From assembly GCF_016097555.1 (NCBI RefSeq), contig NC_054706.1:75672218-75736217 (forward strand): a DNA stretch of 64,000 nucleotides. Direction: 5' to 3'. The notes below the pieces were generated by a model. The model did not search any database, was not told the origin of the DNA, and saw only the letters and a list, made by a program, of their open reading frames with translations. The position numbers and the translations under genes were made by a program. The stretch is from Gigantopelta aegis (taxonomy: Eukaryota; Mollusca; Gastropoda; Neomphalida; Peltospiridae). Below are positions 12,642 to 64,000 of this stretch, one piece after another. Every line of letters starts with the position of its first letter. Position 1 is the first letter of the stretch.

Positions 12642-12738
12642 CGGCCGTTTCCTCACTGGTTCATCATTTGGGCTCGATATTTCTGGCAGTGCACATCTGT
12701 TCCTGACTTGAAGATTTTCATGTTTTTTGCCTAGAACC

Positions 12739-14072
12739 ATGAATAACTTTGCAGCCCTTAACATGTTGAATGTTGGTTTCATGCACTGTTTGTTGGACGC
12801 AGAGCAAGAGTACAATGAGATGGTAGAGCAAGAAAGAAGAAGGAGAAGACCAAGAACCTGTTGGGTGAGGAAGTGGCTGAAACCTGAGAGGAGAATAGCC
12901 GTGGGTCATTATCATCAGCTGATGAAGGAGCTCCGCCTGGATGATCAAGAGTCCTTCTACAACTTCTTGAGAATCACCCCACCCATGTTTGACGAACTTC
13001 TTGAACGCATCACCCCCTTCATAGAAAAAGAAGACAGCAACTACAGAAAGGCTCCGGAACCAGGGATGAAGCTTGCCATCACACTGCGTCATCTGGCAAC
13101 AAGAGATTCCTATGCCACCCTGCAATATGAATTCCGGGTAGCCAGAAACACAATTTGCTTGTTGGTGAAAGAAGTCTGTGATGCCTTGGTGATGGAGCTC
13201 AAGAATGAAGTCATTGTATGCCCTGTTGACAGAGACACTTGGGAAGAAGTTGCTGAGGAGTTCCTGATGCGCTGGAATGTCCCATATGCCTGTGGAGCCC
13301 TGGATGGGAAATGTGTTGCCATCAGAAAGCCTCCCAAGACTGGAACCATGTACCACAACTACAAAGGCTTCTTGTCAGTCGTCCTAATGGCCGTGGTAGA
13401 TGCTGATTACAAATTCATGTGGATAGATGTTGGTGGTTTTGGAAGCCAGTCTGATGCCCAGATCTACAACCAGTCAGAACTGAAAGAATGCTTAGAAGAT
13501 GGCTCCATTGGACTCCCTCCACCTTCCCCCTTGCCAAATGATGTCCAGGACTTTCCCTATTTCCTGCTGGGAGATGAAGCTTTTGGCCTCCGCACATACC
13601 TCATGAAACCATATTCAGGCCGTCAACTGACAAGAGAAGAATGATTGCGAACTACAGGATCTCTAGAGCCAGACGTGTGGTCGAAAATGCCTTTGGCATT
13701 ATGGCCCAGAGATGGAGAGTCCTCTTGTCAACAATGCCAGTGACTGTACAGACCATCGTTGAAGCTTGTGTGCGCCTTCACAACTTCATCCGTCTCCGAA
13801 ACCCAGCCATTCAGAACATTCAAGTGGATGCTGAAGATGCTGCACACAACCTCATCCCTGGTGCCTGGAGACAAGATGCCAACCTGCTAGACTTGGACGT
13901 CCCACAGGGAGGGGCAGGCTCAGGAGGCACAGCAACTTCGGGGGGATCTGCATGGGCTTCAGCGGGGCGTGGGGATCTTGGGGTAGTACTGGCTTCTTTC
14001 ACACGGCCCGTCTTTCTGGATCCACTCCTCTTTGGAGGCATGATGATCGAAGATGGTCGGAACTGTCGTTGA
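12739..14072 (+). pseudogene. PIF/Harbinger transposase (DDE_Tnp_4), frameshifted
   Basis: It would cut and paste the surrounding 12041-14587 transposon. The first ATG is 12739 (MNNFAALNMLN); the codon at 12727 is TTG. The frame carries an arginine-rich N-terminal stretch (QERRRRRPRTCWVRKWL), a helical DNA-binding region and then the nuclease core: first Asp in GALDGKCVAI, second Asp in LLGDEAFGL, and the catalytic Glu in RRVVENAFGIMAQRW. Core and order are those of PIF/Harbinger proteins such as HARBI1. The reading frame breaks once near 13640: TREE ends in TGA, and MIANYRISRARRVVENAFG continues in the next frame, consistent with a one-base indel. The conserved C-terminus (HNFIRLRN, PGAWRQD) is present, but the tail after about 13900 is Gly/Ser-rich and atypical, perhaps an internal-deletion junction. 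Confidence 0.9.
13820..14041 (-). pseudogene. Possible first-exon remnant of the Harbinger accessory (Myb-like) gene
   Basis: An ATG at 14041 (minus) opens MPPKRSGSRKTGRVKEASTT followed by a Pro-rich stretch. A TATAAATA lies on the same strand at 14147-14140. Harbinger transposons carry a second gene facing the transposase, whose product starts with a short basic segment. Here only the start would remain, running antisense into the transposase tail. No Myb/SANT domain is visible, so this is inference from position and promoter. Confidence 0.35.
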
Positions 14073-26570: not shown

Positions 26571-28062
26571 TCTTCAAAAGAAGAAACGCAAAACCACATT
26601 GTCGTAACATTTGGAGAATTGATTTAATTATTGAATGGTGAGTCCGATAATTACCAAATGTTGCAGGATTGTTCACAATTCACTCTAGTCCATTGTGAGT
26701 AAGTGATAGGACACACCACCAAGGTCAAGGTCATCTGGAGTCAATACCGGGTGTGGCCTCCGCGTGTGTTGACAACTGCCTGGCACCGCCTGCCCATTGA
26801 AGCAACCAGAGTACGGATGACGTCCCGGGGGATGGTGGCCCACTCGGCCTGCAAGGCTGCTGCCAGCTCGGGCAGGGCCTGGGGCTGTGGTTGTCGCTGT
26901 CGGAGGCGTCGGTCCAACTCGTCCCATAGATGCTCAGTTGGGTTCAAATCCGGTGATGTCGATGGCCAAGGAAGGACATTAATGTTGTTGTTCTGTAGGA
27001 AAGCCGTTGTGAGACGTGCTGTGTGAGGCCTGACGTTGTCATGTTGGAACACTGCGTTGGCGTTGGCCATAACTGGAACGATGTGTGGCCGGAGGATCTG
27101 GTAAATGTAGCCCTGTGCATTCAGGTTGCCCTGCACGTGGACCAGGTCAGTTCTGCCAGTGTGTGAGATGGCTGCCCACACCATGACACTACCCCCGCTG
27201 AATCTGTCCACTTCCTGCACGCAGTTTGCCGCATAACGTTCACCACGACGCCTATACACGCGACATCTTCCATCATGACGTCGGAGCAGAAATCGGGACT
27301 CGTCACTGAACCACACCTGTCTCCATCGCAGTTGAGGCCATTGTCGATGAATCTGGCACCACTGCAGTCGGAGTCGACGGTGTTGTGGTGTTAAGATGAC
27401 ACCTCGAACTGGACGTCTGGCACGAATTCCTACCTCACGTAGGCGGTTCCGTACGGTCTGGTCGGATATCCTGCGCAAACCTGGTATTGCTGCGGCTGTG
27501 GAGGTGGCAGTAGTCAATCGTTCCCGAAGGTGGCGTACCCGGATGTAGCGGTCCTGCCCGGGGGTAGTGACCCGTGGTCGACCGGATCTAGGGAGGTCAC
27601 GTGTTGATCCATGTTGCTGGTAACGGTCCCACAGTCTGGAGATGGTGCTTGGGGACACATGGAATGCCCTGGCAACGGCCGTTCTGGATTCGCCTGCGTC
27701 TAGTCGGCCGATGGCATTGTTTCTCTGCGGTTCACTGAGACGTGGCATGTCCTGGATTGTCAACTGTCGGCCAGATACAGAGGCCAGGCAAGCGAACACC
27801 CTGCACTTTTATACTGTCGGTGTTCATGTTGCACGTGCAGACAACGCACGTGCAGTGGTGACATGGTTTGCACGTGGCTGCGTTTTTGCGAATATTCACA
27901 TTTTGGAACTTTATTGTACAGTAGCTGCGTTTTATCGAATGTAACCGTGGGAATGTGTTTGGGACATGCAATGACCTTATATTCACAAAGCATGAACCGG
28001 TAGGAAACATAAAATCGGAGTTATAACCCATTTGTACCCTTTTGCGTTTCTTTTTTTGAAGA

Positions 28063-56859: not shown

Positions 56860-57129
56860 CAATTTTAACTTATAAAGAATTAACCAAGCATGGATTTCTT
56901 TAGTTCATTAAGATAAACTTCGAGCAAAGTTTATCTTGATTCTTGATGAAAAAAAGAGTCTTTATTGAATAAGTTTTCAGAGTTCAAACTTCTGGACACT
57001 TGCTGAAGCAAAATATATTATGAACTGAGCCTTTTTATGAATTTTTTTCACTTGCAAAACCCTTTAAAACTAGTAATAAACTGTTTGAAAGAATCACTTT
57101 GTTGAGTTGTTTATTTTCCTTTTCCAGAA

Positions 57130-57450
57130 ATGGCTGATGAAGAACTAAGTGCTGTTGAAACAAACTCACCATCCACACCAGTTGTCAGCAATCCGGGCAC
57201 ACCAAGATCTGACCAGGTGGAGCCAGTGCAGGCAACACCTCCCCCTCCTACCCCCCACCAGGCACGACCCGTCCAGCACCTCAGCAAATACAACCAGCTA
57301 CTGGCAGTCATTGAGGACATGGGTAGAGACATCCGACCAACTTACGCTGGAAACAGAACATCGGCCGAGAGACTAAAACGGAGCATTGTCCATGGACGCA
57401 TTCTTGTGCGCGAATGTCTAATGGAGTGTGAACGGAGTGCAAGAAGTTGA
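57130..57450 (+). CDS. CDK2AP1: CDK2AP1/DOC-1 family protein, 106 aa, single coding exon
   Basis: CDK2-associated protein 1 (DOC-1) binds CDK2 and is a subunit of the NuRD chromatin-remodelling complex. The C-terminal half is unmistakable: [55 protein letters not shown], aligning with the conserved CDK2AP domain to its last residues. The N-terminal half ([20 protein letters not shown]...) is Pro/Thr/Ser-rich and poorly conserved, as in relatives. The ATG lies two bases after a strong acceptor (TTTATTTTCCTTTTCCAG at 57127), so the 5' UTR is spliced while the whole coding region is in one exon. Vertebrate genes split it across several exons. Paralogue CDK2AP2 cannot be separated from CDK2AP1 here. 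The frame is intact. It is divergent from GET4. Confidence 0.93.
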
Positions 57451-59094: not shown

Positions 59095-59161
59095 TAGATG
59101 GCATGAGGAAAGTACATGCTGGATGCATTATGGAGAGGGAGTGAATTGCATGAAGTTAAAA

Positions 59162-59457
59162 AGTGTTTTGTTTAACGACACCACTAGAGCACATTTATTA
59201 ATCATCGGCTATTGGATGTCAAACATTTGGTTATTTTGACAGTCTTAAAGAGGAAACCCGCTACATTTTTCCATCAGTAGCAAGGGATCTTTTATACATA
59301 CCATGCCACAGACATGATAGCACATACCACATCCTTTGATACCAGTCGTGGTACACTTATTGGAACGAGATTTAGCCCAATGGGCCCACCGACGGGGTTC
59401 GATCCAAGACCGAGTGCGCATTAGGTGACCCCTTTACCACTGGGCTACATCCGACCC
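59162..59457 (-). mobile_element. SINE family B, full length
   Basis: Inverted tail TGTTTTGTTTAACGACACCA, body CCATCAGTAGCAAGGGATCT, inverted head GACGGGGTTCGATCC and CCTTTACCACTGGGCTACAT. Well preserved. Confidence 0.9.
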
Positions 59458-59579
59458 CATGAGTTTCATAACGTTTGCTGAACATTAAACGGTTTTAATA
59501 GCTCGTCATGGCATATTTTAAAATAAATGGCCGTTTGTCAAACGTCAAAGTGTAGACAATGAATTCACACTGAAGTGCT

Positions 59580-60045
59580 TTTATAGTCCAGGAGCCAAGT
59601 ATCAAAAGAGGCCTAAAAAATTAGTTGGTGCAACACCCACTACACAGTTGGTTTGTCATTTCTGGCTGCTTGGGGGATGTCTCTGGGACATTTTCAGCCC
59701 TGATGTACAGTTGATTTGTGGCAGCAACAATATGTGGAGGTCTATTTTCTCATGGGGTGCCATGACTTAAGTGGAATTCTGGAAAATTTGGTTTCATTTT
59801 CTCGGCTAATACAAACAAAAGTTTTAAGATTTGTTGCTAATAACATGTTCATATGAGATACACCTGTGTATTGCTGTTAAGTAAGTTCAATGTTGATACA
59901 ATTTTTTTTCAAGATGGCCGCCATTTTTTAGTATGTGGGGCAATAGTTTAGGAGCCATGACCAACTCGAAGTTGTTTAGTCCTACACAGTTGGTTTGTCA
60001 CTTCAAACTGCTAGGAGGATGACTGTGGAACATTTCCAGCCCAGA
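59580..60045. repeat. Direct repeats and inverted terminal sequence at the left of the large mobile gene
   Basis: CTACACAGTTGGTTTGTCA and ATTTTCAGCCC / ATTTCCAGCCC occur at 59640-59700 and again at 59982-60043, preceded by CAGGAGCCAAG / TAGGAGCCATG, giving a direct repeat of about 100 bp spaced by 342 bp. Between them GATACAATTTTTTTTCAAGA with TGGCCGCCATTTTTTAGTAT (59895-59935) is the inverted counterpart of the sequence at the right edge (63944-63990). Confidence 0.7.
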
Positions 60046-60273
60046 GGGAGTGTGATGTACTCTTTTTAGCTTAGTCAGTTGTTGTACGTGTCATGTTATA
60101 TTAACAGTAACTACATATTTGTATCATTGGCATTCACTAGTTAAATGTTATCTTGATATAATGCTAGATAATGTATTGGATTTTGTCTATCAAAATTAAA
60201 CTGAAGTTTCCAAAATGTTTTAAGAAGTGTTCTTATCAATTGCCAAAAATTATTAAGAATTATCGAAATGTCA

Positions 60274-63200
60274 CTAATCATAATCAGGATATTCATCATC
60301 AAGGTCATCATCGTCATCGTCGTCATCATCATCATCAGAGTCAATTGATGGAACTTTGTTTGGGTTTTTGCATTGTTCACCTCCCATACAAATGCAGGCT
60401 TCTGTGCAAGGCATGTCGTTGCGCTTGCATGCACAAGCGTGGCTGTGTTGACATGCAGAAGTCCTACACTTGCATGTGGTCATCTCAACTAGTGCAGCAG
60501 GGGCAGGGTCTTTGATCATTAGAGTGGGTTGGAGAATTCCAATCTGGTTGGTCCATCCATTTTCGTCTGGTCCAGGCAGACGTTGGTTGGCAAGCAGTGA
60601 TGTCTTCCAGATAAAGGACTGGTAGTTAGCTCGATGGATGTGTAACTGGGTGCTGTCAGAAGTTGGTGGGAGGCACTCACTTTTCTGCTTTTTCTGGCAG
60701 AACGTCCAATATCTGACTTCATCTGCTGTGTCACCAACTCCATGAGCTGCTGTGTACAAAGAACATATGAACTGTTCACATGTATGGATCGTGGCCTCTG
60801 TTGGTGGAATGACATCTTCTAGATGGGCCACTTGTTGTTGCTGGTCTACATCTTTCTGAAGTTTCCTGAAAGCTGCCTTCTTCCCGATGCCACTGAAGGC
60901 ACTTGTCGAATCACATCCTGTGAGTGCATGCAATGAAGGAAGTGCTTTACATAATTCAGGTCAAATGTCATGTATTGGGATGTAGCGAAGCCTTTGCTTT
61001 ACTCCAGTACGAAACCAAGGTTTGTGGCACATCATTGTGGTATACATATATATACAAATGACTGCAACAGCTGTGTCAGGAGACTGAATAATCACTTGCT
61101 GGTGGTCATATAAAGCATTGTTGGCATGTAGGAAAAGTCTCGTGTCTGCTTCTTCGTGGTCAGACTCCAGTACTTGCAGATCTATAACATGTTCCCTCAT
61201 GATTAGTTTGCATGTCTTTCCATCCTTGAAGCCTCCGCCGAGGACCATTTGATGACCAGGTTCCAGTTTTTCTGTTCCAATTTCGCACCATCGTTCAGAG
61301 AGAAAGGCACAGAGGTTGGATTTGTTGTTCGAATTCTTGATGTATTTGTCCCATTGTCTGGGTAGGGGTGTACTAGTTCCTAATATCTTGATCTCCAGTC
61401 CTGAAGATGACCCTCGTCGTTTACGTTCTGCTGCCTTGATTGAATCAGGCTGGTCATAGCGATCAAAGACCATGTCTACCCTGTTACATCCATTTTACCC
61501 AAGTGGTGCTGAAATGAGATCAAAGTACTTTTCTGCTAGTTGTCCAAATGTCTTGGTACCACCAGATTTCACCATTTGGATCAAGGCCATTGCATCTAAG
61601 ACATTGGCAGTAGATGGTGGGTTTTCGGAAAATGGAAGTTTGGGCAATACATCAGCCTTGGTTTCCAACTCAGTTAGCAAGTCGCTTTTCACATTCTTAT
61701 GCAAACTTCCATCAGAATGCGCCAGTGCATAAGGCACAGATGACAGCTCATGTGAAAGAACTTCCTTCAAGTTAACATCTCGGGCTTTAGCGACAATGAG
61801 TAGTCTGCCAAAAATATTTCGATCAGCACTGATAGTAGCTGCTTTGTCTTTGGCTGATTTCACAGTAATCTTCTTTGACATTGATGCAAATGTTCTGATC
61901 TTCAAATGTGGGAACTTTTCCAAGAAACCTAGCTCATTTTTGTCGAGGCGTTTAGTTACAAAGTCATTCAGTTGTTCTTGCCCGATGTCTTTAGCTGCCA
62001 CTAGGCGTGCTGCATCATATTGTGGAAGAATCACCCCAGTTATGATATTAAGGAGAGGTTGACAATCGTCTTCTTCGAGAGAAATGATGTCAAATGGATT
62101 TGTTGCAAGACCAAATTTGAATGTAGACATCAGCCTTTGGACATCGGCTTCATCTCTCTTTAGCCTGGTTGCACCAGACTCCTTGTGTGTTCCAATTCGT
62201 TCACTGACTTCTATACCACACATCTCTTTTGTGGCAGATGTAACTGCTGCTCGCTCATGACTTGTCAGGAACCATCTGTCTAGGGCCTCTTGTTTCTGGA
62301 TGATACCCACAATGCCTCCTCTCTTCTTGGAGTCTAGGTTGATGGACTGCTCCAGTGTCATGTCTGTCCAGACACGACTGTATGGCTGGTTTGATCGACA
62401 AACAGCATGGTTGCTATTCATGAATTCTTTGTGTATCTCGGGAAACTTCTCTTGAAGTTGATTCATGTCACAGAGGTATACGGGGAGCCATCGTGAGTAA
62501 TTTGTTCGGTCCATAGAGTAGAAATATGGAGCCATTCTAGCTATAGTATCCAAATGCAACTTCCAACATCCATCTCTTTCAGCACGAATGAATTCAAGCA
62601 GTAACTGGACCATCTCGATGTACATATCCCAGAAGGAGAATAAAAGAGATGCTTTCTTCCCGGCTGTTCTAAAAAGTGACATCAAATTCTGAACGTTCGT
62701 CATTTCCTTACAAACCATCTGATAACACTCATGCAGATCATCAGACTTCTGTGTTATTGCATTTTTGCATTTTTGAATTTGTGCAGTTAAAGTTTCTTTG
62801 TCCAATAGATTATCTTCCTGTCTTTGAGACAACCATTTGCACTGTTCTTTCCACTGCAACCTCACCAGGGCTTCCATGACTAGCTTATGACCTCTGACTC
62901 CACGGTTATAGGATTTTCCTTTTAATAGGTTTGTTGCAGTGTTGATTCCATGGGTACCAGATTCAATAAGGAGATCTGCTAGTCCAGACTCTTCAAACAG
63001 TTTGCCAATAACAGCCAGGTAGTTGAGTGCGACATGGAACCCACCCATTCTAATCACTGTATCATCAAATTCTTTGGGGTTGCGCCATTGTATTTCCTTA
63101 GCCTTCATGTAGATAGCCAAGTCAAACGTAATGACACTGTTTTGTTGTCCAAGGCTTGACATCATCATCTGGACTTGCTTCATCACTGTGTACACAGTAC

Positions 63201-63525
63201 TATACTCAGTTGATGAACCTTTGATCATTGGGCAGTAACCCACTTCAGTGATGGAGGGTAACACACAGGACACCATGGTGTTGAACCCACTCCAGGATGG
63301 AACTGTCTGTTGATCAGCTTCCATGGGGCAGAGTTCTACTTCGAACAGCTTTGTGGGCAGCATTCGCAAGAGTGCCCATGCTAGATCCATTTTGCTGGCA
63401 CTGTCATCGAGGGAACTGCAACTTGCATACCATTTTTGTTTGACTGTGTTACGGAATTGTGTTATTGGTGGTTTCTTTCCATATATATATATATATATAT
63501 ATATAGATACTGAAGCAATGCACAC
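60274..63525 (-). pseudogene. Large mobile-element protein with FEN1/PIN-like motifs and C-terminal Cys-rich domain, lightly broken
   Basis: One minus-strand frame of 1,084 codons, interrupted by about two in-frame stops and lacking a start codon. I recognise the family from similar uncharacterised, repeated invertebrate proteins (from memory). Order: ITFDLAIYMKAKEIQW and RMGGFHVALNYLAVIGKLFE in the first third; a helical middle; VLESDHEEADTRLFLHANNA with VIIQSPDTAVAVIC near codons 785-830; LHALTGCDSTSAFSGIGKKA near 865. Then a nine-cysteine stretch (CKCRTSACQHSHACACKRND, CTEACICMGGEQCKN; about codons 1015-1055) resembling tesmin/TSO1 CXC zinc modules, and an Asp run. Acidic HEEADTRL and SPDT followed by GCD...GIGKKA recalls the XPG-I and helix-3-turn-helix parts of FEN1/XPG nucleases; that assignment is inference. 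Function is probably DNA cleavage in transposition. The N-terminal part is missing from this strand and appears inverted at 63507-63895. Confidence 0.6.
63484..63505. repeat. (TA)n at the junction of opposed gene parts
   Basis: Eleven TA units lie exactly where the minus-strand frame (GKKPPITQFRNTVKQKWYAS) and the plus-strand frame (EAMHTLYYAAQIIMSDLKNC) meet. Confidence 0.8.
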
Positions 63526-63898
63526 ACTGTACTATGCTGCTCAGATTATTATGTCAGATTTGAAAAATTGTTCAGGTATAGATCTTCAACCACTGAGTCT
63601 CCACAACCTGAATCTGAGAAGATCCAAGGACATACTACCAGAAAGCCTTTACAACTTCCTGCATTGGATTGTCTGTATCGAGTTGGATCCATCTCCATAC
63701 ACTCACAATAATGAAAATGCCGCAGATCAAAGGCATGTCATCATGCTTGGCCAAGACATATTGCACTGTGCTTCACCCAAGCATATTGGTCTCGCCATAT
63801 CAGTGCGTCACTTGACTGGATCAAAACAACTTATCAACATACTCAACCGTATGGGTTACTGTTCATTCTATGAAGAAGTTGAAACAATAAATTAAATG
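63507..63898 (+). pseudogene. N-terminal part of the same mobile protein family, on the opposite strand
   Basis: Encodes LPESLYNFLHWIVCIELDPS, ADQRHVIMLGQDILHCASPK and HIGLAISVRHLTGSKQLINI LNRMGYCSFYEEVETIN. In related proteins as I remember them, this HLTGS...LLNR-GH motif precedes the TFDLAIY region in one polypeptide. Here it points the other way, away from the rest, ends at a TAA after ETIN and is followed by AATAAAA at about 63931. Either a local inversion or two elements inserted head to head explains this. Confidence 0.55.
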
Positions 63899-63939
63899 TG
63901 AATTATTACCATTATGTAAGAAAACATGTAAAATAAAAC

Positions 63940-64000
63940 GTCACGTGCAGCCATATTAAAAAATGGCGGCCATCTTGAAAAAAAATTGTATTATCTTTGA
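63940..64000. repeat. Right inverted terminal sequence with opposed YY1-like motifs, cut by the window edge
   Basis: AAAAAATGGCGGCCATCTTG followed by AAAAAAAATTGTATTA is the inverted form of 59893-59935. AAAATGGCGGC and, on the other strand, CAAGATGGCCGC both resemble YY1 sites. The outer end lies beyond the window. Confidence 0.65.

Follow-up and report, generated by a model that had tools for sequence, protein, structure and literature searches.

A rearranged transposon in the Gigantopelta aegis genome

The 64-kb stretch of Gigantopelta aegis DNA analysed here (the window) contains a minus-strand frame of 1,086 codons, including the terminal stop (60274-63531), that is broken by two internal stops and embedded in a DNA transposon extending beyond the end of the window (Table 1). 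A previous reading of the letters alone (hereafter, the sequence-only reading) had singled out this frame for its HEEADT, SPDT and GCDSTSAFSGIGKKA motifs and its Cys-rich tail, all of which are indeed present on the minus strand. The frame is not a chance occurrence because it has many copies in the genome and belongs to a large protein family. The window copy, labelled L009, is a dead, rearranged, non-autonomous transposon copy.

The ends of the element, TAGTCCAGGAGCC...GGCTCCTGGACTA, were read from aligned fetched copies and carry a terminal 5'-TAGTC. The inverted arms of the window family are long and built of subrepeats of ~350 bp; within the window, a 49-nt inverted repeat (92%) pairs 59887-59935 with 63952-64000, at the window edge. 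Both ends are readable in 9 of the 12 fetched copies, and 8 of these 9 are flanked by identical 3-bp duplications (TAA, TAA, TTG, ATA, CAA, GAA, TAA, and ATA, the last one within an AT repeat); in L013, the duplication is mismatched (TAA/TGA). One end is unreadable within the stretch fetched for L012, L015 and L020. In the 10 copies whose 5' end is present, the sequence flanking that end (up to 800 bp) was compared by BLAST, and no flanks matched one another at 1e-10. L013, at 6,873 bp, carries ~1.5 kb of extra sequence compared with the window copy (~1441-2952 in the coding orientation).

Several other features surround the transposon in the window. A repeat located just outside the element (59155-59463) has at least a dozen relatives in the window at 70-88% and looks like a tRNA-derived SINE, and a match to CDK2AP (57106-57447, plus strand; E=4e-22) is apparently a host-gene exon near the transposon. 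A 310-aa frame (12712-13641, plus strand) matches Pfam DDE_Tnp_4 (E=2e-14) and is a Harbinger-type transposase-derived gene, and a 355-aa open frame (26744-27808, minus strand) with DDE_3 and a Tc3-type HTH is apparently an uninterrupted Tc1/mariner transposase.

Table 1 Features of the transposon in the window and locations of related arms elsewhere in the genome
Feature	Position	Strand	Basis
3-bp target site duplication TAA (coding strand)	59581..59583; partner 64660-64662 outside the window	.	copy alignment
DNA transposon, 5,076 bp in total	59584..64000 in the window; ends at 64659 (659 bp past the window end)	-	ends TAGTCCAGGAGCC / GGCTCCTGGACTA in L009
3' terminal inverted repeat arm; the other fetched two-armed copies have longer ones	59584..60045	.	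copy alignment
Acidic C-terminal tail, poly-Asp	60277..60345 (limits approximate)	-	translation
CXC (Tesmin/TSO1-like) Cys-rich domain	60370..60474	-	tail alignment, PDB profile, Pfam TCR
FEN1/XPG-like domain (VLDAMA, VFDRY, HEEADT, SPDT, TGCDSTSAFSGIGKKA)	60850..61605 (limits approximate)	-	profile searches, hhalign, acidic columns
GCDSTSAFSGIGKKA	from about 60918	-	motif located in frame
Internal stop TGA	60961-60963	-	frame translation
SPDT	61066-61083	-	motif located in frame
HEEADT	61141-61158	-	motif located in frame
Internal stop TAA	61495-61497	-	frame translation
Transposase-like core, DUF6589-like	61495..63531	-	Pfam DUF6589 and invariant motifs
TLEQ	62347-62367	-	core motif
GGFH	63022-63045	-	core motif
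TFDL	63106-63129	-	core motif
(AT)n microsatellite close to where the inverted segment and the frame meet	63481..63509	.	sequence
Internal coding segment, inverted; plus-strand frame ends ...SKQLINILNRMGYCSFYEEVETIN	63501..63886	+	minus-strand match to L020 2801-2398, 93%; translations
5' terminal inverted repeat arm, inner part	63882..64000	.	inverted-repeat search and copy alignment
Related arm / divergent gene relative	C10:24715789 / 24710340		arm and protein searches
Related arm / divergent gene relative	C3:79511030 / 79514117		arm and protein searches
Related arm / divergent gene relative	C9:74297136 / 74302754		arm and protein searches
Related arm / divergent gene relative	C2:49292714 / 49297668		arm and protein searches

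Copies and decay of the window family

A DNA search of the genome (1.15 Gb, 5,216 contigs) with the frame found 192 candidates, 40 of which were scored and gave 59 rows, so that this and the other copy counts given here are lower bounds. Sixteen rows at 95-100% represent at least 13 elements including that of the window, the 12 others being 95-97% identical to it; the remaining 43 are short, at 64-93%. Twelve of the 13 close elements were fetched with their flanks. The sequence-only reading had proposed a mobile gene family and suggested counting its copies and looking for common ends; the close elements, with their shared TAGTC ends and 3-bp duplications, together with a large divergent family in the same genome (see below), bear this proposal out.

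The same reading took the gene for recently decayed, with only a couple of stops in it. The two stops are there, but the near-intact state is not: because its N terminus is truncated and rearranged as well, the window copy is further from an intact element than the stops imply. No near-full-length frame (~1,500 aa) was found in the 12 fetched close elements, the longest one being 862 aa. Differences between the window copy and the 11 others are spread over the three codon positions without bias (219, 206 and 214, with changes on the window branch counted repeatedly).

The rearrangement involves an internal coding segment that is inverted in the window copy and has lost both of its flanks, including the first acidic motif of the transposase-like core. 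In L020, the corresponding region is collinear with residues 348-716 of the uninterrupted protein of L054 (see below) and contains AADNNDINEETLDGK, which is this first acidic motif. The inverted arrangement is common to L009, L010, L011 and L013, that is, 4 of the 12 fetched copies; in the seven fetched copies other than these and L020, the segment is wholly or almost wholly absent. The same inversion occurs at unrelated sites and, therefore, the rearranged form appears to have kept moving after partial gene loss, presumably mobilised in trans.

Uninterrupted relatives in divergent families

A protein search of the genome with the last 228 residues found 2,725 candidates; the 150 that were scored gave 150 rows at E<=1.4e-19, with a few elements contributing more than one row. 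A search with the core found 1,925 candidates, and the 65 scored among them gave 72 rows. Four relatives picked for their long open frames (L051-L054) encode single frames of 1,473, 1,485, 1,487 and 1,550 aa (that of L053 counted from TTG), and each of the 7.5-kb loci holds one frame of at least 400 aa. Intact relatives had been predicted to exist in the same genome, and these four, which belong to divergent families, agree with this: over the nuclease domain, they are 25-35% identical to L023, a member of the window family. Read by eye, each of the four elements has TAGTC at its ends and is flanked by a 3-bp duplication (TTA, TAA, ATA and TGA). The uninterrupted protein, of ~1,500 residues, consists of N-terminal zinc-finger-like segments, the transposase-like core, the FEN1/XPG-like domain and the CXC domain, in this order.

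The 5' arm of the window family also matches arms, 73-80% identical, that lie within about 3-6 kb of divergent gene relatives (~33% protein identity; Table 1). The ends and the gene have therefore diverged together, and divergent relatives with related arms may provide the trans mobilisation. Further such arms, for example, at C12:39653686 and C10:83556587, have no gene nearby among the matches listed. Searches of viral contigs and prokaryote genomes confirmed no relatives.

The transposase-like core

The core weakly resembles Pfam DUF6589, which matches the window piece with E=7.6e-6 and 25.3 bits, below the curated cut-off of 27; among five core rows, three match (E up to 10; best 4.1e-6), and a Pfam listing at E<=5 for the four uninterrupted proteins in full length does not include DUF6589. 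Across the DUF6589-like region, the relatives retain the DN-D, FDQ, GxxH and D-E motifs. In the alignment of the four proteins, which are 22-24% identical to L054, the N-terminal Cys/His pairs are invariant, and so are, in L054 numbering, D467-N-x-D470, F-D631-Q, H660, D882 and E886 in the core, as well as, further on, D1123, D1164, D1264, D1287-T-D1289, G-C-D1345 and the C-terminal cysteines. The first and second acids of the core are separated by 155-171 residues, and the second acid and the glutamate by 215-263.

From these motifs, the core is predicted to be of the DDE type, with DN-[ILV]-D, FDQ and D-xxx-E as the proposed triad. Because the core profile matched no solved structure in the PDB up to E=10, the DDE fold is one that we infer. 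The sequence-only reading had seen no DDE signature here; such an absence is not supported for the family, given that conserved acidic motifs lie upstream of the nuclease domain in the relatives, the first of them being missing in the window copy. A single-sequence PDB search with the core piece hit PP2A at 0.027, which was set aside as a chance match.

The FEN1/XPG-like domain and the CXC tail

The domain downstream of the core had been likened to the FEN1/XPG nucleases. In a search of the whole PDB with a profile of 12 domain sequences (A2), the four best rows are EXO1 (E 0.0029, 0.0030, 0.0043 and 0.0095), followed by the ribosomal protein uS3 (0.01), EXO1 again (0.18), GEN1 (0.71) and a further two uS3 rows. 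The EXO1 match comprises two collinear stretches (lvfDG...K..er.rR and GcD...GiG), each weak alone; in the best row, their independent E-values are 26 and 1.9. With a second profile (A4, nine rows), EXO1 appears at 0.0036-0.012 (with one row at 0.2), GEN1 at 0.084 and E. coli ExoIX/XNI at 0.99; the single best row is uS3 (E=0.0025), which matches another stretch of the profile and recurs in many weaker rows.

Against human FEN1, hhalign gave a score of 26.1 over only 87 columns, with a probability of 6.7% and an E-value, for a single comparison, of 0.0054, pairing TEDMDCL with SPDTDVA and GSDYCESIRGIGPKRA with GCDSTSAFSGIGKNAA; none of 200 shuffles reached this score (maximum 23.3), and the reversed sequence scored 18.8. 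The A4 columns 24, 70, 181, 183, 208, 210 and 274 are acidic in every row that has a letter there, in the order of the seven FEN1 carboxylates; the columns equivalent to D86, D179, D181 and D233 were placed by tool alignments, and those equivalent to D34, E158 and E160 by eye, from motif order. Together with the seven acids in FEN1/XPG order, the domain contains a GxGxK helix-turn-helix motif. In the window copy, one of the seven acids is replaced (SPDTAV), whereas L011 and L023 retain it.

Because these several lines agree, each of them modest, with EXO1 at or near the top of the profile searches, the assignment of the domain as FEN1/XPG-like holds at the level of sequence comparison. The domain resembles FEN1, EXO1, GEN1 and XPG in the order of the seven acids, a VFDG-like motif and a GCD...GxGKK motif; it differs from them in its very low identity, below Pfam detection (at E<=1, the Pfam XPG models miss all 12 sequences of the domain), and in being part of a protein that also has a transposase-like core and a CXC tail. 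Three short stretches from a search for host XPG-type exons, L055 among them, were left out of this assessment. A single-sequence AlphaFold model of the FEN region of the window, read through the two stops, had pLDDT 33.9 and pTM 0.18. A single-sequence PDB search with the last piece of the window frame produced best rows at 0.47, which we regard as chance, with no FEN or CXC structure among them.

The TSO1/CXC character of the tail, also proposed earlier, is corroborated. Eight cysteines are invariant in all 12 tails, LIN54 is the top match of the tail profile in the PDB (E=5.2e-4), and Pfam TCR, with E allowed up to 10, is found in 8 of the 12 tails, 1e-4 being the best value; the tail in the window reaches E=0.019 and 15.7 bits, where the cut-off is 23.5. 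The domain shares the CxC...C...CxC...C...C pattern with Tesmin, TSO1 and LIN54, and it differs in that a single CXC unit is present, which lies C-terminally in a protein encoded by a transposon.

Placement among known transposons

The 3-bp duplications, the core and the nuclease fit a published combination of traits and, for this reason, we consider the element, by these features, to be probably a DNA transposon of the cut-and-paste kind that belongs to the AcademX type of the Academ superfamily. The nuclease of AcademX is of the XPG type, and Academ proteins carry a Cys8 motif, to be compared with the eight invariant cysteines found here. AcademX elements are reported to have 3- or 4-bp target duplications and to encode a nuclease, AcademH elements to have 9- or 10-bp duplications and to encode a helicase, and the difference in duplication length is related to the encoded nuclease versus helicase (PMC10045372; the primary sources, Kojima 2020 and Kapitonov & Jurka 2010, are cited via PMC10045372 and PMC4455052). 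Another source lists Academ among the superfamilies with a DDD/E transposase (PMC9587614).

The window family shares with AcademX the inverted repeats, the 3-bp target duplications and the combination of a transposase-like core with a nuclease, and differs from its published description in no tested trait; the arms of ~350-bp subrepeats are possibly peculiar to the window family. From AcademH, of the same superfamily, it is set apart by its 3-bp duplications and by the lack of a helicase match in the Pfam scan of the four proteins. Kolobok elements have a 4-bp TTAA duplication, whereas the 3-bp duplications here are variable. The lineages KolobokE, D and P are likewise DDD/E transposons with an accessory nuclease (PMC9587614), but the nuclease folds are different and so, judging by the duplication type, is the transposase. 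DUF6589 was not mentioned in the literature searched, and the term XPG was not found in the part of it checked for this term.

Mechanism and alternative explanations

In the mechanism that we envisage, the zinc-finger-like N-terminal Cys/His segments and the CXC domain would bind the terminal repeats, and the DDE-type core would join the transposon ends to the target strands at points separated by 3 bp, giving rise to the 3-bp duplication. The FEN-type nuclease would trim a single-stranded or branched intermediate, most plausibly at the 5' ends of the non-transferred strands. The strand cut by each domain and the target of the CXC domain are presumptive. More tentatively, and with less than even probability, the FEN-type domain might be an essential catalytic partner, cutting one strand per end or resolving flaps or hairpins, and DUF6589 might be the core of an Academ-type lineage with a FEN/XPG branch too divergent for the existing models.

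The sequence-only reading went further, envisaging a new class of transposons in which the FEN-like domain is the sole catalyst of transposition, with no DDE chemistry. The complete FEN-type acidic set in the family is compatible with this idea, and so is a DDE fold that is deduced from motifs, with a core profile lacking a solved-structure match. However, the D, D, H and E motifs are invariant across four proteins only 22-24% identical, and inverted repeats with uniform short duplications, as seen here, are typical of DDE transposases. FEN-family enzymes are hydrolases and are not known to join strands, and we consider a sole FEN catalyst very unlikely. The long frame with FEN-like motifs could also suggest an ordinary single-copy host nuclease gene or pseudogene. 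This explanation is refuted by the copy number and target duplications: at least 13 near-identical elements with terminal repeats are present, their 5' flanks have no match in common, and a large divergent family accompanies them, leaving the host-gene explanation with virtually no credibility.

A different kind of novelty would be an undescribed superfamily that has 3-bp duplications and a FEN-type nuclease as AcademX does but is unrelated to it. Pfam and NCBIfam (all four uninterrupted proteins) and PHROGs (three of the four scanned) gave no meaningful match, the sole profile matches of note being a weak DUF6589-like one in the core and a TCR-like one in the tail, and this lack of recognition could be taken in favour of such a superfamily. 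Against it, the combination of traits is the published AcademX one (PMC10045372), and a mollusc survey describes Academ elements as abundant (PMC10294476). That this survey places Academ almost exclusively in bivalves, and hardly in other molluscs, counts against the AcademX assignment. We regard an unrelated superfamily as improbable, albeit less so than a sole FEN catalyst. The AcademX kind is already named, and the window family is probably an added member of it rather than a new kind, contrary to the class proposed from the letters alone.

With the AcademX-type assignment, a protein family that is uncurated and highly multiplied becomes linked to a named superfamily of transposons. The nuclease domain of this family is indicated to keep the FEN-type active-site acids even though Pfam misses it, and the uninterrupted relatives provide material for asking why a transposase carries its own flap endonuclease.
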